Below are positions 27,025 through 36,310 of a DNA stretch of 64,000 nt, piece after piece. Both the position numbers and the translations under genes were made by a program. Below the pieces are notes generated by a model that ran no database searches, was not told the DNA's origin, and saw only the letters and a program-made list of their open reading frames with translations. The DNA comes from Nitrospirales bacterium (GTDB lineage Bacteria > Nitrospirota > Nitrospiria > Nitrospirales > UBA8639), in NCBI GenBank assembly GCA_029261295.1, contig JAJDBP010000017.1, positions 1 through 64,000 on the forward strand, written 5' to 3'. Position 1 is the stretch's first letter, and the number at the start of each line of letters is the position of its first letter.

Positions 27025-28038
27025 TTATTCAAAATGTCTTTGTTGCTTGGTAATAAGATCAGCACTTAACGGAAAATATCCGTCTTTCATGACCACTTTT
27101 TGACCTTGTCGACTATACACATATTTCAAGAACTCTTTGACAATGGGTGACAACGGTTTATTGGGAGCTTTGTTCACGTACACCAATAAAAAACGAGCCA
27201 AGGGATAGGCCCCTTTGGAGGCATTCGCAAACGTCGGTTCAACAAATGCTCCTCCATTCTTCACCGCCAACGGAATGGCCCGGACTCCAGAGGTTCGATA
27301 TCCAATCCCACTGTACCCCATACCCGCACGATCTTCCGTCACACCTTGAACTACAGACGCTGACCCGGGCTGCTCCTTCACCTGATCGCGGTAATCTCCA
27401 TTTTGCAGCACTTTCTTTTTAAAAAACCCATAGGTACCCGAGGCTGAATTTCGTCCATATAAACTAATCGGCATCTTGGTAAATGCCCCATTCAACCCCA
27501 AATCGCCCCATGAGATAATGTCTTTCTTCAACCCTTGCCGACGTGTCTTAGAGAAAGCCGCATCCACTTGGGCCACACTCATCCCAGCAATTGGATTATC
27601 CTTGTTGACGTAGACAGCTAACGCATCAATAGCCACTGGAAACGGAGTAGGTTTATACCCAAACTTTGCTTCGAAGGCATCCATTTCCTTGCCCTTCATT
27701 TTGCGAGACATTGGACCTAATTGAGCTGTCCCTTCAATGAGAGCTGGTGGAGCCGTACTTGACCCCTTCCCTTCAATTTGAACCTTGACGTTCGGGTATT
27801 GTTTGCGAAAGCCTTCAGCCCAAAGTGTCATCAAATTATTTAACGTATCTGATCCAATACTATTGATATTGCCAGAGACTCCGCTTACCCGTGTATAGCC
27901 TTTCCAATTTGGGTCATCCATTGATTCTTTGGCCCAAGCTATCGACGAATCAAACCCATTGACTCCAGACCAGCCTAAGAATAGACCGACAAATACGGTG
28001 CACATCCATTTGGCTCTTCTTTTTGGTGCTTCCTTCAT
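27025..28038 (-). CDS. pstS: Phosphate-binding periplasmic protein PstS
   Basis: From the ATG at 28038 (preceded by GGGGGAA; an in-frame start at 28131 would delete the signal peptide and overlap the Pho box) the protein has 337 residues. It has an N-terminal Sec signal (about 1-36) and the family phosphate-binding loops [16 protein letters not shown] and [16 protein letters not shown]. PstS delivers phosphate to PstCAB. It is the first gene of the transporter operon, with a putative Pho box 56-83 bp upstream. Confidence 0.95.
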
Positions 28039-28093
28039 GACTATATTCCCCCTCAAATAAGTAAGGCATTGTACATTTGGTAAATTTCTCTTC

Positions 28094-28121
28094 TGTAACG
28101 AGTATGTTACGAACGTGTTAC
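28094..28121 (-). promoter_or_regulatory. Putative PhoB box upstream of pstS
   Basis: On the plus strand TGTAAC (28094), TGTTAC (28105) and TGTTAC (28116) recur every 11 bp. On the coding strand these read as GTAACA/GTAACA/GTTACA units, matching the tandem architecture of Pho boxes. A TACAAT -10-like hexamer lies about 20 nt downstream on the coding strand, so the repeats would occupy the -35 region, as at E. coli pstS. Period and position are visible; PhoB binding is inferred. Confidence 0.65.
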
Positions 28122-28160
28122 ATGCCAGCACATAGCTTTTCCTGAATTTGCGATCAACTT

Positions 28161-28400
28161 CTACGCCTGCTCCTTCATGCGGATTTCTAACAGAGAGCCA
28201 ATTTGATGTACGGATATCAAACCTTCCCGTCGAAACTTTCCCAAAATTGAAAAGAGATCACCCCATTGAATCCATGGAAATCTTTCCATGAGCATCTCAA
28301 GCGTGACGCCTTTTTCCTCAACAAGACAATTTAATACCTTTTGTTCCGCTTGCCCTTGAACAATCGGTTTGGTCCATGCTCTTTCCTTAATTGACACCAT
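28161..28400 (-). CDS. Small winged-helix-like protein upstream of pstS
   Basis: The 79-residue protein starts at 28400 behind GGAGGTGGAAA. Its core fits a winged-helix pattern: [21 protein letters not shown], then [20 protein letters not shown], then LLEIRM. It lies 122 bp upstream of the pstS start on the same strand. A two-unit Pho-box-like motif (28509-28525) lies about 110 bp upstream of it. It may be a local regulator or partner of the Pst system; that role is inferred from position only. Confidence 0.65.
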
Positions 28401-28795
28401 TTTCCACCTCCAGAGTTAATAGAAAGAGGTCCAAAATGAATTCACACGATTTACCACCTTCCTGAGTCCCATCCTACCCACACCATATTGCTATCTAGTT
28501 GGCATCGGGTTACAGCTGTGTAACGTTTTTCACATTTAGCTAGGTTTCTGCTGGGCACGGGCTTTCAGGAGGAAAGAAAGGGGAGGTGATGTCAATACGG
28601 ACTCCATACGAAATGCAGCCTGCCAGGAGCCTTAGGTCTCTTGGATTTTCTGTCGATACATGAAGAGAAAGGTCAACTCGCTACTGAGGGACGAACCTCA
28701 ATTCAATGCATTGGCACAATACGTTCACACTGTAAAATTTCCTTTCAACTTTTTCAGGATTCAGCAACACCAATCCTAGCGCCTCATTACTGATC
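28401..28795. other. Divergent spacer between the winged-helix gene and the PP2C gene
   Basis: This 395-bp spacer holds a two-unit Pho-box-like motif (28509-28525) and two very short overlapping plus-strand frames. One is at 28589-28663 (24 codons, preceded by GGGGAGG but at 2-nt spacing). The other is at 28660-28779 (39 codons, starting in the ATGA overlap). The short frames may be leader peptides or chance. No other gene is seen. Confidence 0.4.
28509..28525 (-). promoter_or_regulatory. Two-unit Pho-box-like motif
   Basis: On the minus strand, CGTTAC and TGTAAC units sit 11 bp apart (plus-strand GTTACA at 28509 and GTAACG at 28520), the same half-site and spacing as at pstS. The motif lies about 110 bp upstream of the small winged-helix gene at 28161-28400 and also forms an inverted repeat with a 4-bp spacer. 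Confidence 0.4.
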
Positions 28796-30514
28796 ATGAC
28801 GAATAATCCCATGCATTTAGGCCTTATTTTAATGGCCGCCTCTGATTCTCCTGATGTTCAAATCCTCATGCACAGTTTCTCTGCCTACGGCTTTGAATTG
28901 CATCTGGTATCAGATGGTGAAACCGCCCTTTCTTCAATTCCAACGCTCAAGCCTGACCTCATTTTCTTAGACGTGACGCAACCTGGCCTCAGCGGCTTTG
29001 ATACCTGTCTGCAGTTAAAAGAACAGGATGAGACGAAACATATTCCCGTCATTTTTGTCACGACACCAACAGATACGGTCAGTACGGTTAAAGGATTCTC
29101 AGTCGGCGCAGTTGATTACGTCACCAAACCATTTCAAATAGAGGAAGTCATTGCACGCATCACCACTCATTTAAAAATTCGCAATCTTCAGGTGTTATTG
29201 GAAGAAATTATCGCCAATCTTCAGACTGAAGTCGCGGAACGCCAGCGTGCGGAAGAAGCACTACAAGAAACGATGCGAATGGTGCAAGAAGCCAATGATC
29301 GAATGAAAAATGACCTCGCGGCAGCGGCACGAGTGCAGCAAGCACTGCTTCCGGATATCTTACCCACGTTTCCAGGTGTGGGCTTTGCGTGGACCTACCG
29401 CCCTTGCTCTGAGTTAGGTGGGGATTCGTTAAACGTCTTTCCGCTCAATGATGACCACGTTGGACTCTATGTGCTTGATGTCAGCGGACATGGCGTCTCT
29501 GCGTCTCTTCTGTCAGTGACCCTTAGTCGAGTGCTCATTCCCCGGCGTGACCCATCCTGCCTTTTCATACAGTCCACTGGCTCTCCAGACACAGAAACAT
29601 TGGCCTCTCCTGCAGAAATTGCCACGCGCTTAAATCGTATGTTTCCCATGAGCGAAGATGGGCGACAATATTTCACCTTGATTTATGGAATTCTAAATAT
29701 TCGCACCGGAGAGTTTCGATATACCTGCGCTGGCCATCCTCCACCCTTATACCTTTCTCCCAATCAGGAATTGCGTTCCTGTGAAATCGGGAATGTGCCC
29801 ATCGGTCTTTTTGAAGATAGCCAGTTTGATGAGGGCATCATTCAACTCGAACCTGGTGGGCGTTTGTTTTTGTATTCGGATGGGGTGCTCGAAGCCAAAA
29901 ATGAATCAAAGGAAATTTTTGGTGAAGACCGATTACAAAAAATCCTAGAAGCCACCCAACGGGGCCCCTTGCAAGCTAGTGTGGATGGCATCGTAAAGTC
30001 GGCGTTGGATTGGACCGGGACTCAACAGGCACAAGATGACTTATCCATCCTTGCCTTTGAGTGGACGCCAGCCGTGAACACAGAGACCCCAACAAAATTG
30101 GACACGCAGGTCATTCTTTCGCACCGATTCTCTGCGAGAGCCACCGATCTAAGCCCCGCCCGAACGATGACCCGAACAGCCCTTAATAATCATGGGTGGC
30201 ACTCCGATATAGTAGAAGACATCGTGCTGGCTATAGATGAAGCATGCCAGAATATCATTCGTCATGCCTACGGCGGGGAATGTGATGAGCCGATCACTCT
30301 CTCCATCGAGCTCCATGACCATAACTTGGTGGTGGTCCTTGAGGACCACGCCCCAACGGTTAGTCCTGATTGTATGAACCCTCGAGCCTTTGATGATATT
30401 CGCCCTGGTGGACTGGGGTGTCATTTCATGCGGCAAGTCATGAACACAGTTTCATTCGAACCATCGTCAACGGGACAAGGCAATTGTCTCCGAATGGTCA
30501 AAAGCGTGGGCTAA
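28796..30514 (+). CDS. Fused receiver / PP2C phosphatase / HATPase regulator (RsbU-RsbW type)
   Basis: The 572-residue protein has three parts. First is a response-regulator receiver (about 8-125; phospho-acceptor Asp59 in LIFLDVTQPG, Lys in VTKPF). A coiled-coil linker (about 127-165) leads to a PP2C/SpoIIE-type serine phosphatase (about 190-395; SELGGDSLNVFPL, LDVSGHGVSASLLS, LYSDGVLEA). At the C-terminus is a HATPase of the anti-sigma kinase type (about 430-570; VLAIDEACQNIIRHAYGG, GGLGCHFMRQVM). One polypeptide could thus both phosphorylate and dephosphorylate a STAS protein. A STAS gene follows 25 bp downstream, then the Mla genes. The sensor kinase that feeds the receiver is not in the window. 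Confidence 0.92.
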   Translation: MTNNPMHLGLILMAASDSPDVQILMHSFSAYGFELHLVSDGETALSSIPTLKPDLIFLDVTQPGLSGFDTCLQLKEQDETKHIPVIFVTTPTDTVSTVKGFSVGAVDYVTKPFQIEEVIARITTHLKIRNLQVLLEEIIANLQTEVAERQRAEEALQETMRMVQEANDRMKNDLAAAARVQQALLPDILPTFPGVGFAWTYRPCSELGGDSLNVFPLNDDHVGLYVLDVSGHGVSASLLSVTLSRVLIPRRDPSCLFIQSTGSPDTETLASPAEIATRLNRMFPMSEDGRQYFTLIYGILNIRTGEFRYTCAGHPPPLYLSPNQELRSCEIGNVPIGLFEDSQFDEGIIQLEPGGRLFLYSDGVLEAKNESKEIFGEDRLQKILEATQRGPLQASVDGIVKSALDWTGTQQAQDDLSILAFEWTPAVNTETPTKLDTQVILSHRFSARATDLSPARTMTRTALNNHGWHSDIVEDIVLAIDEACQNIIRHAYGGECDEPITLSIELHDHNLVVVLEDHAPTVSPDCMNPRAFDDIRPGGLGCHFMRQVMNTVSFEPSSTGQGNCLRMVKSVG

Positions 30515-30539
30515 CCCTACAACCACCAAGTTACATTTT

Positions 30540-30872
30540 ATGGAACACCAGGTATTCGAACAACAGGGTCATCACATTGTCAGTCTCACCGGTGAGATTG
30601 ATCTAGAAACTTCGCCTGCCGCTAGAAAAATTCTACTTGATACCGTCGATACCAGCACCAAACTTCTCATCGATATGGCCTCAGTCACTTATATTGATAG
30701 CTCAGGGATCGCCATCCTCGTGGAAGCCTTCCAACGAGCCAAGAAAAAAGGCGGCCAGGTGGCCTTTATTTCTTTAAACCCAGCCGTGGTCCGAGTGTTA
30801 TCTCTTGCGAGACTCGACAAGGTATTTTCCATCCATGCCGACATGGAAAGCGCCATTCATGCTCAACCCTGA
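30540..30872 (+). CDS. STAS-domain anti-sigma antagonist / MlaB-like protein
   Basis: The 110-residue protein is one STAS domain (about 5-105), with the phosphorylatable serine motif MASVTYIDSSGIAILVEAF of SpoIIAA/RsbV proteins. MlaB of the E. coli Mla transporter is also a STAS protein. The gene is sandwiched between a PP2C/kinase protein and MlaE, so both roles are possible. Its stop overlaps the mlaE start by 14 nt, giving strong coupling. Confidence 0.9.
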   Translation: MEHQVFEQQGHHIVSLTGEIDLETSPAARKILLDTVDTSTKLLIDMASVTYIDSSGIAILVEAFQRAKKKGGQVAFISLNPAVVRVLSLARLDKVFSIHADMESAIHAQP

Positions 30873-31677
30873 CCGTCCTCTTTCACCACTTCTTCACAAA
30901 ATCGAAACCGTAGGACGTGTCACCACTCAATGGGTGGACACCGTAGGTTTTGGTGCATCCTTACTTTACGACTCAGTCTTTTGGGTTTGCTGGGGCGGTC
31001 GTCGGAAACAACCAGTTCGCCTGGCTCCCATCGTGTCACAAATGATGGAAGTTGGGATTCTCGCCGTGCCCATGATTTCGCTGGTTTCGATGACCATCGG
31101 GCTCATGTTAGCCATTCAAGGCATCGATGCGTTGAAAGACTTTGGCGCGGAGCATCAGGTGACCTTTGGAGTGGCGTTATCTGTTGTTCGTGAATTTGCT
31201 CCATTGATAACTGGAATTCTCGTTGCCGGCCGATCAGGCTCTGCTTTTGCCGCGCGCCTCAGTACCATGATCATCAACAATGAAGTTGATTCTCTACGTG
31301 TGATGGGCATCAACCCTGTCCGATTCCTCGTCGTGCCAAGTTTGGTGGCCATGATGATCATGGTCCCTTCGCTCACCCTTTTGGCAGACGTCCTTGCTCT
31401 ATTTGGAGCAGGACTCTATATCTCGACCGAACTCGGCATATCAATGGGAACGTATATCGCACAAACAATCACCTTTCTCGGCACTGAAGATGTCTTGCAC
31501 GGGCTGGGCAAAAGCTTGGTGTTTGGGGCCCTGATCACGCTTGTGGGAGTGATCAATGGTTCATCCGTGAAGGGAGGTGCAGAAGGCGTGGGACAGGTGA
31601 CCACTCGCGCGGTCGTTCATTCCATTTTGGCTATCATTTTGGCTGATCTCCTTATCGTTTTCATGCTGACGAGATAG
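30859..31677 (+). CDS. mlaE: MlaE-family lipid ABC transporter permease
   Basis: Starting at the ATG at 30859, inside the end of the STAS gene, the 272-residue protein shows the MlaE (PF02405) pattern. Early hydrophobic segments hold VPMISLVSMTIGLMLAIQG, followed by the conserved loop LITGILVAGRSGSAFAARLS, EVDSLRVMGINPVRFLVVPS and further membrane segments to the C-terminus. MlaE forms the inner-membrane channel of the phospholipid transporter. The long N-terminal extension of the upstream in-frame start is rejected. Confidence 0.93.
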   Translation: MLNPDRPLSPLLHKIETVGRVTTQWVDTVGFGASLLYDSVFWVCWGGRRKQPVRLAPIVSQMMEVGILAVPMISLVSMTIGLMLAIQGIDALKDFGAEHQVTFGVALSVVREFAPLITGILVAGRSGSAFAARLSTMIINNEVDSLRVMGINPVRFLVVPSLVAMMIMVPSLTLLADVLALFGAGLYISTELGISMGTYIAQTITFLGTEDVLHGLGKSLVFGALITLVGVINGSSVKGGAEGVGQVTTRAVVHSILAIILADLLIVFMLTR

Positions 31678-31684
31678 ATGAACC

Positions 31685-32515
31685 ATGACCTCTAATTTTC
31701 CTGATACCTCTCCCATCATTGAAGTAGTCGATCTGACCACTCACTATGGTTCCCGAAAAATTTTGAACAAGATTTCCCTCACCGTCAACAAGGGCGAAAT
31801 TATGGTGATCATGGGTGGAAGCGGGTCAGGAAAAAGCACGTTATTGCGGCATTTAATTGGCCTCGAACATCCAAGCGATGGGTGCATCAAACTCTTAGGC
31901 CAAGATATCGGACTGATGAACGAACAACACATGACACAGTTTTATCGAAAATTAGGTGTCGCCTTTCAAAGTGGCGCATTATTCAGTTCAATGACCGTAG
32001 GGGAGAACATTATGCTCCCTCTTCGAGAGCACACAAAACTGGATCAAAAGACGATGGAAATCATGGCCCGGCTCAAACTCGAAGTCGTCAATTTAGCCGG
32101 ATTTGAAAATCTAATGCCTTCCGAGCTTTCAGGAGGCATGCTCAAACGAGCCGCGTTTGCTCGCGCCGTGATTATGGACCCGGTTCTCCTGTTTTGCGAC
32201 GAACCTTCAGCGGGCCTCGACCCAGTGGTATCTTCATCTTTGGACGAACTGATTCTCAGGCTCAGGGATGCTCTCGACATGACTATCGTCGTCGTGACAC
32301 ATGAACTGGAAAGTGCATTTCGCATTGCGGACCGGATTACCGTGTTAGATAAAGGCGATATTCTAACCATTGGGACGGTGGATGAAGTTCGTGCCTCCAG
32401 CAATCAACGAATCCAAGACTTGTTGAATCGACATTTTGAAGAAGAGATTCTTGATCCTGATGAATATATGGCCCGCCTCACGGGAGAGCCGCAAGAAGCC
32501 TTTACCCATGTGTAA
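31685..32515 (+). CDS. mlaF: MlaF-family lipid ABC transporter ATPase
   Basis: The 276-residue ATPase has Walker A GGSGSGKST, the MlaF-typical signature LSGGMLKRAAFARAV and Walker B LLFCDEPSAGLDP. The C-terminal tail (LDPDEYMARLTGEPQ) resembles the tail of MlaF that contacts MlaB in E. coli. It is encoded 7 bp after mlaE. It powers lipid movement between inner and outer membrane. Confidence 0.93.
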   Translation: MTSNFPDTSPIIEVVDLTTHYGSRKILNKISLTVNKGEIMVIMGGSGSGKSTLLRHLIGLEHPSDGCIKLLGQDIGLMNEQHMTQFYRKLGVAFQSGALFSSMTVGENIMLPLREHTKLDQKTMEIMARLKLEVVNLAGFENLMPSELSGGMLKRAAFARAVIMDPVLLFCDEPSAGLDPVVSSSLDELILRLRDALDMTIVVVTHELESAFRIADRITVLDKGDILTIGTVDEVRASSNQRIQDLLNRHFEEEILDPDEYMARLTGEPQEAFTHV

Positions 32516-32554
32516 TCATTTATCCACTCACTCCAATCAAACGAATTAAGTCAT

Positions 32555-33481
32555 ATGCGAGATTCGAGAAAAAACTATCTCATTGTCGGAACGTTTGTCC
32601 TCACGATGCTCAGTACACTTCTGGTTTGGTTGGCTGTGCTTTCTGGTAGCATCCAAACCACCACATCCTATTACATTGACTTCGAAAATGTTATTGGCCT
32701 TTCCCCAGGCGGACAAATTCTCTTTGAAGGTTATCCCGTGGGAGAAATTGAGGATATCGTCTTCATACGGCGACCGGAAGGAGCCGTCTATCGGCTCACT
32801 ATTACGATCCGTGAAGGATGGGATATTCCTGAAGACAGTCTTGCCGTCATGACACAAGCGAGCTTGCTATCCGCGATGGTCGTCGACATTCAAGCTGGGA
32901 CATCGACTCGCCAACTCGCGCCAGGTGAACGTATTCCTAGTTTGGGATCGACCAATATTATGACAGCCATGGCCTCCGTAGCCGCTAAGCTAGGGAACCT
33001 GGCGGATACGAGCTTGAAACCTTTCCTGGACAATCTTTCCGGGGGCACAGACTCCCTCACGACGCTTTCTCACGATGCTCCCATTATTCTCAATAATGTC
33101 AAAACCTTCACCCACCAACTGACGACGGCTTCAACTCGACTCAATGGTATTTTGGATAAAAGCGGAGGGAAAATCGAGACGATTTTAGGAAAGACCGAAC
33201 TCGCTTCTGGCAACATCTCGACTCTGACAACAGATTTTCACCACACCCGCAAACAATTAGATGCCTTATTGCACTCTATGCGAAAAATCGTGAGCAATAA
33301 TAGTGGAGAAATCGATCATTCCATTGCTGATCTACACCATGCCTTAGAAGTGGTCGCCAGCCACGTTCAAGAGATTAGCTCGAACTTGGAAGCCACGACG
33401 AGAAATATGAATGAACTCACGTCTGATTTACGACGGAATCCTGGCCTTATCGTACGAGGACGAGATTTCCACGAACCCTAA
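32555..33481 (+). CDS. mlaD: MCE-domain protein (MlaD-like)
   Basis: The 308-residue protein has one N-terminal membrane segment (about 9-30), a single MCE domain (about 38-125; FENVIGLSPGGQILFEGYPVG, the family core) and a long coiled-coil C-terminal part (about 150-300). E. coli MlaD is about 183 residues; the long tail is closer to PqiB/YebT-type or Mce proteins that may reach across the periplasm. It has the usual place after the ATPase. Confidence 0.9.
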   Translation: MRDSRKNYLIVGTFVLTMLSTLLVWLAVLSGSIQTTTSYYIDFENVIGLSPGGQILFEGYPVGEIEDIVFIRRPEGAVYRLTITIREGWDIPEDSLAVMTQASLLSAMVVDIQAGTSTRQLAPGERIPSLGSTNIMTAMASVAAKLGNLADTSLKPFLDNLSGGTDSLTTLSHDAPIILNNVKTFTHQLTTASTRLNGILDKSGGKIETILGKTELASGNISTLTTDFHHTRKQLDALLHSMRKIVSNNSGEIDHSIADLHHALEVVASHVQEISSNLEATTRNMNELTSDLRRNPGLIVRGRDFHEP

Positions 33482-33495
33482 AGGGACAGATACGT

Positions 33496-34134
33496 ATGAG
33501 AATTTCTTATAGAATATGCTTGATTGGTCAGGTCGTGGTTGGAGTCCTCCTCCTAAGCGGGTGTCTGGGAGGACAACCCTCACCCGATTATTTTTATCGA
33601 TTAAACTTACCTGACCCAACAACACGATTAGATACGCCACCCTTGGATGGAACACTCCAAGTTACTCGACCTTGGGCGGATGCCCTCACAAGTGAACGCC
33701 ACTTGGTCTACCGCAAAGAGGGAAAGATTTCCGAGCTCAACCATCATGCCTATCATCGATGGGTAGACTCTCCAACGCTCCTCTTACAACAAGAAATGAC
33801 TCAGTATTTGAGAAAGGTGGGACTGGCGGAACAAGTCGTGACCCCTGAAATGCGGACAAAAGCCGAATTTACCTTATCTTGCCGTATTGCCAGGCTCGAA
33901 CGTGTACTCGATCAATCCCCTCGCGTGATCTTAGAACTTGAATTAGGAATCACGTCGATGAAAAATCGCCGAACCGTGTTATTACGCACGTATCATGAAG
34001 AACAACCCACTACGGACCTTGAGGTTGCGTCTTCTATCGCGGCATACAACCAAGCGCTTTCGACCATCCTCCAGCGGTTTACACAAGACACATCCCAACT
34101 CTCCCTCCTCAAACTCACCGACGCGAAGTTATAA
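33496..34134 (+). CDS. ABC-type transport auxiliary lipoprotein (PqiC/MlaD-associated)
   Basis: The 212-residue protein has a signal peptide with lipobox (LLLSGCLGG, Cys about 24) and the PF03886-like pattern SPDYFYRLNLPDP and LTSERHLVYRKEGKI. It is probably an outer-membrane lipoprotein that docks the MCE protein. It is the last gene of the lipid-transport unit and converges with phoR (15-bp gap). No MlaA- or MlaC-like gene is present in the window. Confidence 0.82.
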   Translation: MRISYRICLIGQVVVGVLLLSGCLGGQPSPDYFYRLNLPDPTTRLDTPPLDGTLQVTRPWADALTSERHLVYRKEGKISELNHHAYHRWVDSPTLLLQQEMTQYLRKVGLAEQVVTPEMRTKAEFTLSCRIARLERVLDQSPRVILELELGITSMKNRRTVLLRTYHEEQPTTDLEVASSIAAYNQALSTILQRFTQDTSQLSLLKLTDAKL

Positions 34135-34148
34135 TTTCTTTCATCAGG

Positions 34149-35531
34149 TTATTTTGTCTCGACAGAGAGCCTTTCTTGAGAAGGCACAGGCAACTCCAAT
34201 TCAACGGTGACTCCTTTTCCCAGTTCACTGTCAATCCGAAGTTCCCCTCCTAATAATTGCACTAAATGTTTGACGATAGACAATCCCAACCCGGTTCCCC
34301 CTTCTTCACGCGATCGAGCTCGGTCCACACGGTAAAACCGTTCAGTAATTCGAGGCAAATCGGTTGAAGGTATTCCTTGACCGGTATCTTTCACTTGTAG
34401 GATAAGTGACTTCTCTGCTCGCTGCACCAAGAAAGAAATACTCCCTCCATCGAATGAATATTTAATGGCATTGTCCACAAGATTGAGGAGAATTTGTACC
34501 ACACGATCACGATCTGTCCATACCACATCTTTTTCATCGATTTGATTCTTAAGGCGAAGATCTCTTTTCTGGAGTTGCGGCTGGAACATCTCGGAAACCT
34601 CATCAACCATATCCTTCAAACCGACGATTTCCCACTGGACTACTACCTGTCTCGATTCAATTTCTGAAAGACTTCGTAGATCGTCCACAAGGCGATTCAG
34701 TCGTTCTGCATGTTGATGGGCTACCTGGACAAACTTTCGATTTTGGGGGGTGTCTAGCGTCGGCTCATCAATCAATGTTTCTAAATACCCAATGATCGCG
34801 GCTAACGGTGTCCGCAATTCATGCGACACGTTATCAATAAACTCTGCCCGCACTTGTTCTAAGCGACGCAATTGTGTCACGTCATGCAAGACAATCACGC
34901 TCCCCTTTTTCTGGTTAGCCAAGGGAAAGGGTAATCCGTAGACTTCAATGGTCATTCGTGCTGGTGCATGGATCACCACTTCAACACGTTGCTGTTCATT
35001 GGGCGACAGATCTCGACATCCTTCGACCAATTCCCCTAATTCCTTATTGCGAATGACTTCCCACACGGACTGCCCTTGCAACTGTTGCTCATTTAAACCA
35101 AGAATTCGGCAGGCACTGGCATTGCTAAAAAGAACATATCCTTGAGGATCAAATGCCACGACCCCTTCCACCAAATTTTGGACAATGGCGGAAATTTTGG
35201 CTCGTTCTTCTTCAAGATTGCCAATCCGTGTTTGTATGTGTTGGACCGTTTGCTGGAGATCAGAACTCAATGACCTCGGTGGGGAGGAAAGAGAGGAACG
35301 ACTCTGTGAGCCATCGGCAATTTGCTGTAATTCGATAAGGCTGGTGCGAATCTCGTCTTCCTGGTCACACGTTTGATCCCAAGCCTTCTGAGTGATCCTA
35401 TACGCCGCGCTCAGCAAGACAATCCCCAGTACCCCTACTGCCCACAATGACCATCCGAAGATCAGACCAACCCCAACCACGAACATCGCAACAACCATCC
35501 AACCGACAAGCATGACCGGAGAATTAACCAT
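34149..35531 (-). CDS. phoR: PhoR sensor histidine kinase
   Basis: The protein of about 460 residues has two N-terminal membrane segments (about 8-40), a PAS domain (about 100-200; VEGVVAFDPQGYVLFSNASA), a HisKA domain with FIDNVSHELRTPLAAIIGY, and a HATPase (DNAIKYSFDGGSISF, GQGIP, EGGTGLGLSIVKHLVQ). PhoR senses the state of the Pst-PhoU complex and phosphorylates PhoB. The start is the ATG at 35531 (a GTG lies one codon earlier). It follows phoB by 32 bp. Confidence 0.93.
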   Translation of the reverse strand: MVNSPVMLVGWMVVAMFVVGVGLIFGWSLWAVGVLGIVLLSAAYRITQKAWDQTCDQEDEIRTSLIELQQIADGSQSRSSLSSPPRSLSSDLQQTVQHIQTRIGNLEEERAKISAIVQNLVEGVVAFDPQGYVLFSNASACRILGLNEQQLQGQSVWEVIRNKELGELVEGCRDLSPNEQQRVEVVIHAPARMTIEVYGLPFPLANQKKGSVIVLHDVTQLRRLEQVRAEFIDNVSHELRTPLAAIIGYLETLIDEPTLDTPQNRKFVQVAHQHAERLNRLVDDLRSLSEIESRQVVVQWEIVGLKDMVDEVSEMFQPQLQKRDLRLKNQIDEKDVVWTDRDRVVQILLNLVDNAIKYSFDGGSISFLVQRAEKSLILQVKDTGQGIPSTDLPRITERFYRVDRARSREEGGTGLGLSIVKHLVQLLGGELRIDSELGKGVTVELELPVPSQERLSVETK

Positions 35532-35563
35532 CACTGGCTCTCACATACAGATACATTTGAGTA

Positions 35564-36256
35564 TCAAGCAATTTCAGCATCAAACCGGTATCCCACACCT
35601 TTCACGGTGACGACCCGTTTCTGCTCGTCTCCTAATTTTTCTCGAAGTCGCCGGATATGAACATCTACCGTGCGAGATTCAATATCTACAGCATTGGAAT
35701 AGCCCCACACTCTTTCCATAATTTGCTCCCGATTGAGCACACGCCCATTGGCCTTCATCAGACCACACAATAAATCAAATTCTTTAACAGTCAGATCTAC
35801 TCCTTTTCCGGCAACCAAAACCTGATGTTTCGCCTCATCCACCACCAAGGATCCGATTTGAGTGACCGAGGGTAGTTCTTGAGCCTGTCCACGCCGCAAC
35901 ACGGCCTTGACCCTAGCCACAAGCTCCCTTGGGCTAAAGGGTTTCACCATATAATCATCCGCTCCCATTTCCAATCCGACGATGCGATCCACTTCTTCCG
36001 CTTTCGCGGTTAACATAATAATGGCCACCGAAGCTGTTTTAGGATCTTTTCGAATTGCACGACACACCTCTAATCCATCCACGCCTGGAAGCATGAGATC
36101 GAGCACCATTAAGTCTGGCATTCGTTCTCGTGCTATTTGAAGAGCCGTTTCCCCATCTCGAGCTTCCAAACATTGCAGACCATCTTTTTCAAGATGATAC
36201 CGAACAAGCTCAACCAGATCTTTTTCATCATCTACGACTAATACCGTTGCAGGCAT
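35564..36256 (-). CDS. phoB: PhoB response regulator
   Basis: The protein of about 230 residues has a receiver domain (DDE acidic pocket, phospho-acceptor Asp in LMVLDLMLPG, Lys in VKPFSPREL) and an OmpR/PhoB winged-helix C-terminal domain (VDVHIRRLREKLG, VKGVGYRF). It would bind the 11-bp-period arrays at 4.78 and 28.10 kb. Two ATGs are available; GGAGAC is 8 nt from the second (36256). It is encoded with phoR, 48 bp after a RecB-like nuclease gene on the same strand. Confidence 0.94.
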   Translation of the reverse strand: MPATVLVVDDEKDLVELVRYHLEKDGLQCLEARDGETALQIARERMPDLMVLDLMLPGVDGLEVCRAIRKDPKTASVAIIMLTAKAEEVDRIVGLEMGADDYMVKPFSPRELVARVKAVLRRGQAQELPSVTQIGSLVVDEAKHQVLVAGKGVDLTVKEFDLLCGLMKANGRVLNREQIMERVWGYSNAVDIESRTVDVHIRRLREKLGDEQKRVVTVKGVGYRFDAEIA

Positions 36257-36310
36257 CACCATGTCTCCTTACAATTACGCAATACCACTCTAGCGATCTT
36301 CAGGACCATA

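Follow-up and report, generated by a model that had tools for sequence, protein, structure and literature searches.

The window analysed in this work is a stretch of 64,000 nucleotides from a Nitrospirales bacterium (phylum Nitrospirota), whose genome of 4.06 Mb is distributed over 38 contigs. Positions 28796-34134 of the window harbor six co-directional genes, coding for a receiver-PP2C-HATPase protein (hereafter the switch protein), a STAS protein, MlaE, MlaF, MlaD and a PqiC-like lipoprotein. As detailed below, this cluster probably represents a partner-switching system placed at the service of a lipid transporter. The features of the locus are the following:

28796..30514 (+): switch protein, 572 amino acids; receiver, PP2C/SpoIIE and RsbW-like HATPase_c_2 domains (Pfam)
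30540..30872 (+): STAS protein, 110 amino acids; presumed phosphosite Ser54 (DSSG), proposed MlaB-like subunit (Pfam/NCBIfam, PDB matches, AF2 model, fold searches)
30859..31677 (+): mlaE, permease lacking an N-terminal STAS domain (Pfam MlaE, 226 bits on a longer open reading frame, ORF; start from orthologue alignment)
31685..32515 (+): mlaF, ATPase with LSGGM signature and a C-terminal extension with a short helix at 258-266 (Y261, L265) (domain matches, alignment, model)
32555..33481 (+): mlaD, 308 amino acids, MCE-domain protein with a long C-terminal part (Pfam MlaD, 46 bits)
33496..34134 (+): ABC_trans_aux (PqiC/MpcA-like) lipoprotein (Pfam PF03886, 44 bits)
28711..28738 (+): possible sigma-70-like promoter upstream of the switch gene (weak: the region has 4 such sites, the mean of shuffled sequences being 7.3)

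An earlier note on this DNA had described the first product as carrying both phosphatase and kinase modules, followed by a STAS protein with an intact DSSG site and then by mlaE, mlaF and mlaD. Pfam bears out the former (receiver at amino acids 17-122, PF00072, 71.6 bits; SpoIIE/PP2C at 219-423, 147 bits; HATPase_c_2 at 445-569, 88 bits), and both site and gene order were found as described at 30540-33481. The range it gave, 28796-34134, also takes in the PqiC-like lipoprotein gene (33496-34134), which it left unnamed, and its assignment to an Mla transporter holds as far as MlaE, MlaF and MlaD are concerned, whereas the gene content is of the Mpc type (MlaE, MlaF, long MlaD and PqiC-like lipoprotein, with no mlaC in the block). 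The transporter of the window is closer to the Mpc (Mla-Pqi) type than to the Mla system of E. coli. The most likely start of mlaE, favored by the alignment of orthologues, is the ATG at 30859, inside the STAS gene; the resulting overlap of 14 nucleotides suggests translational coupling.

The domain order of the switch protein is that of the response regulators HsbR and CrsR. In its phosphatase part, Asp210, Asp228 and Asp362, kept in 50/50 phosphatases, and Asp414/415, kept in 49/50 (the remaining sequence has an X), are the residues that we take to bind the metal; pieces shorter than 380 amino acids (L193, L200) were left out. The kinase profile matches RsbW (1e-22) and SpoIIAB (6e-11), all kinases (53/53) retain Glu and Asn of the N-box together with the G1 Asp, and GGLG occurs in 52 of them (GGYG in the other one); the split kinase of L195 was left out, and two complete clusters, L144 and L159 (genomes G124 and G372), are absent from the residue counts. 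The window kinase retains the N-box and GGLG and has Ala at the position of the G1 Gly.

The receiver also named in the earlier description does exist as a domain (71.6 bits), whereas its usual acidic pair is absent. In the family of the window (f1), this pair is substituted in 8/8 receivers (AS, IE, TA, AE, AA, EH); the acceptor Asp is present in all eight, Lys is replaced by Arg in 4/8 and Thr by Lys in the three sequences of genus g5, and Lys or Thr is gone in 7/8. Of the residues expected in a receiver that can be phosphorylated (acidic pair, Asp, Thr/Ser and Lys), not all are present, and the f1 receiver is degenerate. Outside f1, kinase and phosphatase are separate genes, the phosphatase carries a GAF domain in both loci scanned with Pfam, and the remaining loci show no receiver motifs in the alignment. 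It was thus the input domain that was swapped, the phosphatase, the kinase, STAS and the transporter remaining linked.

The phosphosite of the window STAS protein reads Y-I-D53-S54-S55-G, and D-S-S is found at this site in 70/70 proteins (58/58 aligned plus 12/12 more); Ser54 aligns both with the phosphosite of SpoIIAA and with Thr52 of MlaB. The AlphaFold2 (AF2) model of the protein has a pLDDT (predicted local distance difference test) of 89.7. In a Foldseek search with it, anti-sigma antagonists were closest (SpoIIAA 1th8_B, E 6.7e-9), and MlaB was listed too (7ch7_E, 6.2e-5). A further fold search returned 4qtp_D (Z 18.4, root-mean-square deviation, rmsd, 1.6 over 109); MlaB chains were not among the best 50 matches of this second search, which carries no weight against kinship. 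The structure matches, taken together with a gene context in which STAS is encoded with MlaE/MlaF as an MlaB subunit is, suggest a protein that is an antagonist by descent and a transporter subunit by its genomic company.

The mlaE gene in question was found in 9 of the 48 f1 genomes, including the window; the other eight proteins share 69-84% identity with it, the next paralogues reaching 40% at most. Contig CAKZPV010000004 adds one f1 locus. The order HATPase-STAS-mlaE-mlaF-mlaD is kept in all nine other f1 loci, belonging to three genera, and the receiver-PP2C part is present in seven of them; it is truncated by the contig end in G322, and it was not found in the G299 locus, whose sequence is interrupted by an N run and whose MlaD, too, is short. 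In genus g5 (three genomes) and in G317, an ORF of its own, overlapping its neighbour, codes for the kinase. The flanks of the block vary, with pst/phoRB in genus g1 (where flanks were available) and different genes in g5 and g136.

At the phylum level, 395 sampled genomes were surveyed with an MlaE profile built from ten f1 proteins. In the best 28 matching loci outside f1, PP2C, a separate HATPase kinase, STAS and MlaE follow one another in this order (28/28), while the 30 best-scoring canonical MlaE loci harbor none of the three switch genes. The longer regions of 59 loci (out of 60, L218, a stub of 10 bases, having been dropped) comprise 44 with PP2C-kinase-STAS-MlaE, 4 with STAS-MlaE only, all from genus g64, and 11 in which STAS is missing, several of them taken as comparisons. 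Reading the association from the side of the kinase, the kinase profile has matches in 60/395 genomes at E<=1e-25, one in each, and 59 of the 60 belong to a PP2C-kinase-STAS-MlaE cluster. These comprise 46 outside f1 that had been seen with the MlaE profile, the window, G242, and 11/11 of family f16, which has a more divergent MlaE. The cluster occurs in 13 families (f1, f16, f18, f21, f24, f27, f29, f30, f31, f32, f34, f35 and f43). The co-occurrence that the earlier note had put forward as a check is thus seen in nine other f1 loci and, across the phylum, in 57 more genomes, and such a conservation of the block order is not attributable to chance.

The genes following mlaE are less constant. 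Unrelated genes (e.g., of the HlyD family) were observed there in L166 (3275-4384, minus strand), L164, L191, L197 and L198, and in several genomes mlaF lies at a greater distance from mlaE or elsewhere. An apparent absence of MlaF in some genomes was rejected, the MlaF of this subfamily being encoded elsewhere in 9/9 of them. The g64 loci (L202, L209, L212, L213) have no neighbouring MlaF either; MlaF and other PP2C-kinase-STAS sets are found elsewhere.

Outside the phylum, the eight places opened among 350 plasmid records contained either MlaE fused to STAS or an MlaE with no kinase listed, and a scan of contigs with a single MlaE protein as the query matched only four close relatives. L227 (NZ_CP010166.1, 2959-6482) is an Mpc-like STAS-MlaE fusion operon located beside IS26 on an 11.5-kb E. 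coli plasmid; an MlaE like that of NZ_CP010166.1 is present on many enterobacterial plasmid records. STAS-MlaE fusions whose site reads DT or DS occur in these proteobacterial plasmid copies as well as in other Mla paralogues of f1.

The MlaF model of the window superimposes on P. aeruginosa MlaF with Z 34.8 (rmsd 1.6, 243 aligned) and on E. coli MlaF with Z 34.0 (1.4, 243), a fit with which MetN ties (Z 34.2, rmsd 1.4, 241 aligned). In E. coli, the MlaF C-terminal extension ends in a helix whose residues Tyr261, Leu265 and Leu266 lie where MlaF meets MlaB, according to PMC7367683. A C-terminal extension with D/E/N-Y/F near its end is present in the main subfamily MlaF of 39/39 clusters; it is not apparent in alignments of STAS-less and STAS-fused systems, and 2/9 canonical tails show the loose pattern (the tail of G059, which contains X, was left out). 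The window model ends with a linker and the short helix 258-266, a stretch modelled with low confidence (blocks averaging 54 and 57). A tail like that of E. coli was rejected for the window itself, since shuffles give no support to it, and was seen only in f16: there, 9/9 tails match the E. coli one (0/1000 shuffles each), and the E. coli MlaF hidden Markov model matches one f16 protein up to position 266 of 270.

As for sigma factors, an anti-sigma/sigma pair close to the cluster and bound by the STAS protein was one of the two findings that, according to the earlier note, would speak against its proposal. No Sigma70_r2 gene lies within ~48 kb of the cluster in any of the 12 genomes inspected, several of whose contigs are short: ten have no sigma gene on the contig of the cluster, G113 has one ~84 kb away and G154 one ~48 kb away. 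The 494-kb contig that carries the window has none, the whole source genome having 16 Sigma70_r2 matches. On contig C14 of the same genome, another PP2C/HATPase/STAS set stands beside a sigma factor, a ParA-like gene, a methyl-accepting chemotaxis protein gene and CheY, and shows how a sigma-linked partner switch looks in the same cell. This region (L095, G000:C14:82000-90500) contains a receiver-PP2C / receiver-HATPase / STAS module that is probably flagellar. Two tandem STAS genes followed by a PotA-like ABC ATPase were also observed on contig C4 (L011, G000:C4, 1447-3273), with no MlaE there.

Gene content and order, their conservation, the catalytic motifs and the absence of a nearby sigma gene are direct observations. 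The presence of a kinase, a phosphatase and their likely target beside a lipid transporter, recurring in distant relatives, suggests that phosphorylation probably switches lipid transport. The earlier note had read the locus in this way, and the comparative evidence (59/60 kinases clustered, active-site residues invariant) lends support to the linkage of switch and transporter and to that reading. We consider it rather probable that the cluster encodes a partner-switching module having an ABC (ATP-binding cassette) lipid transporter as its output and STAS as a phosphorylatable, MlaB-like subunit. Beyond the genes, we infer phosphorylation, the docking of STAS on MlaF, the direction of the switch and its signal. 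Unphosphorylated STAS would dock on MlaF, and the activity of the MlaFE complex would depend on it. Phosphorylation of Ser54, in the docking face, by the RsbW-like kinase would release STAS and lower transport, and the PP2C domain would restore transport by dephosphorylating STAS. The input might reach the phosphatase via its N-terminal domain, GAF in most lineages and the degenerate receiver in the window. The direction of the switch is likely, though not certain, by analogy with E. coli MlaB, where T52E weakens the MlaB-MlaF interaction, whereas T52A leaves the complex intact and abolishes the ATPase, as stated in the relevant sections of PMC7367683 and PMC5016091.

Several observations weigh against a transporter switched by phosphorylation. 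The G1 Gly is replaced by Ala in all 10 f1 kinases, window included, and in one other (11/53). The STAS protein is nearer to SpoIIAA/RsbV than to MlaB (PDB matches, 1e-12 vs. 7e-4), and the MlaB model NF033618 scores 27.5 bits on it, with a curated cut-off of 90. The only kinase outside the cluster, that of G401, has STAS and a PP2C remnant with it and no adjoining MlaE, and, conversely, the four g64 genomes keep STAS-MlaE with DSS without a neighbouring kinase or phosphatase. Outside f16, the similarity of the MlaF tail to that of E. coli falls short of significance (9/39 at p<=0.05, median 0.16); moreover, Kolich et al. found that MlaB binding survives the deletion of the MlaF extension, according to the pertinent part of PMC7367683, and because of this the extension is a pointer rather than a proof. 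Lastly, an E. coli T52A complex that is intact and yet inactive indicates that the site may not work by phosphorylation alone.

The last point and the g64 loci would also fit the idea that STAS, like its E. coli counterpart, serves constitutively as a structural subunit, the kinase and the phosphatase having another protein as target and the serine serving assembly or ATPase chemistry. T52A MlaB is indeed assembled and inactive (PMC7367683), and Ser/Thr is conserved at the site also in STAS-MlaE fusions without a nearby kinase; however, fusions and MlaB mostly have DT where the cluster has DSS, and the gene order keeps kinase and phosphatase with STAS, the distance matrices being correlated (r 0.75-0.80, shared ancestry being uncontrolled; L193, L195 and L200 left out). 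We regard this idea as quite unlikely. It is unlikely, too, that the system is a transcriptional partner switch, in which a sigma factor encoded at a distance, bound by the kinase domain or by some other anti-sigma factor, is set free by STAS, the transporter being merely co-transcribed. The similarity of STAS and kinase to RsbV/SpoIIAA and RsbW/SpoIIAB, the 16 Sigma70_r2 matches of the genome and the precedent of HsbR and CrsR, which are built of these domains and target FlgM/FliA and RpoS (PMC6482189), would agree with it, whereas the distance of sigma genes from the cluster, the company of mlaE in 59/60 cases and the separate sigma-linked module on C14 would not. Between these two alternatives and a switched transporter stands a dual output, in which the STAS phospho-state controls the transporter and a second target (e.g., a cyclase or a sigma factor), as HsbA does with FlgM and HsbD in the account given in part of PMC6482189. 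In G034 (L200, 1350-2357) a receiver-GGDEF gene is indeed inserted between STAS and MlaE; however, an extra gene of such kind was seen in one locus only among those inspected, which makes this option very improbable.

The MlaFB structure paper, in its discussion of active MlaB, leaves its regulation open and proposes phosphorylation without evidence (PMC7367683), and the same guess is offered in the corresponding part of the 2016 paper (PMC5016091). No report of a kinase or phosphatase for MlaB, or of such an operon, was found in searches of the open-licence PMC literature. The clusters would supply a candidate kinase and phosphatase encoded with the STAS subunit, so that the question of MlaB regulation becomes testable with purified proteins. 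If the proposal is correct, partner switching would extend to membrane transport and to outer-membrane lipid balance. A bolder version, which could equally well be right or wrong, is that the kinase-phosphatase pair directly controls the lipid transporter by the shuttling of STAS between kinase and MlaF, that this was the ancestral role of MlaB, and that Thr52 is the relic of a phospho-switch mostly lost or replaced by the STAS-MlaE fusion.

In the SiaABCD system of Pseudomonas, SiaC acts directly on SiaD. As part of a partner switch, the phospho-state of an antagonist-like protein is governed there by a PP2C phosphatase and a kinase (PMC7647112); SiaD is a diguanylate cyclase, whereas the proposed output in the window is an ABC transporter. 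RsbU/RsbW/RsbV and SpoIIE/SpoIIAB/SpoIIAA share with the window a PP2C phosphatase with its Asp set, an RsbW-like GHKL kinase and a STAS protein with a phosphorylatable Ser, and differ in that no sigma factor lies near the window cluster. HsbR-HsbA (Pseudomonas) and CrsR-CrsA (Shewanella) likewise pair a receiver-PP2C-kinase protein with a STAS protein; however, their outputs, in the sections of PMC6482189 concerned, are FlgM/FliA, HsbD and RpoS, and the window receiver lacks the acidic pair.

Among transporters, E. coli MlaFEDB has MlaE, MlaF, MlaD and a separate STAS protein, with Thr52 corresponding to Ser54 and an MlaF extension ending in a short helix; in contrast, the relevant parts of PMC7367683 and PMC5016091 mention neither a kinase nor a phosphatase acting on MlaB, the window STAS is SpoIIAA-like, and the window block lacks mlaC and includes a PqiC-like lipoprotein. 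With the Mpc system of Brucella abortus, the window has in common MlaE, MlaF, the long MlaD and the PqiC-like lipoprotein; STAS is there fused to the N-terminus of MpcE, whereas the window has a separate gene, and neither kinase nor phosphatase is described in the portion of PMC12436622 devoted to the system. The fusion of STAS to MlaE in Mpc-type systems suggests that a STAS unit belongs to such transporters, and a STAS protein encoded apart, together with a kinase and a phosphatase of its own, represents a third arrangement, beside separate MlaB and fused STAS.

Lastly, the neighbours of the block in the window are pstS, divergent and upstream, and phoR and phoB, convergent and downstream (names assigned by reading the sequences, without a database search); with these flanks (27025-28131 and 34149-36262), the window is an example of the genus g1 block flanked by pst genes and phoR/phoB. 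A link with the Pho regulon was rejected, since the promoter contains no match to a simple Pho-box pattern and the window has fewer matches than shuffled sequences. An ORF of 79 amino acids (28161-28400, minus strand) lies between pstS and the switch gene.

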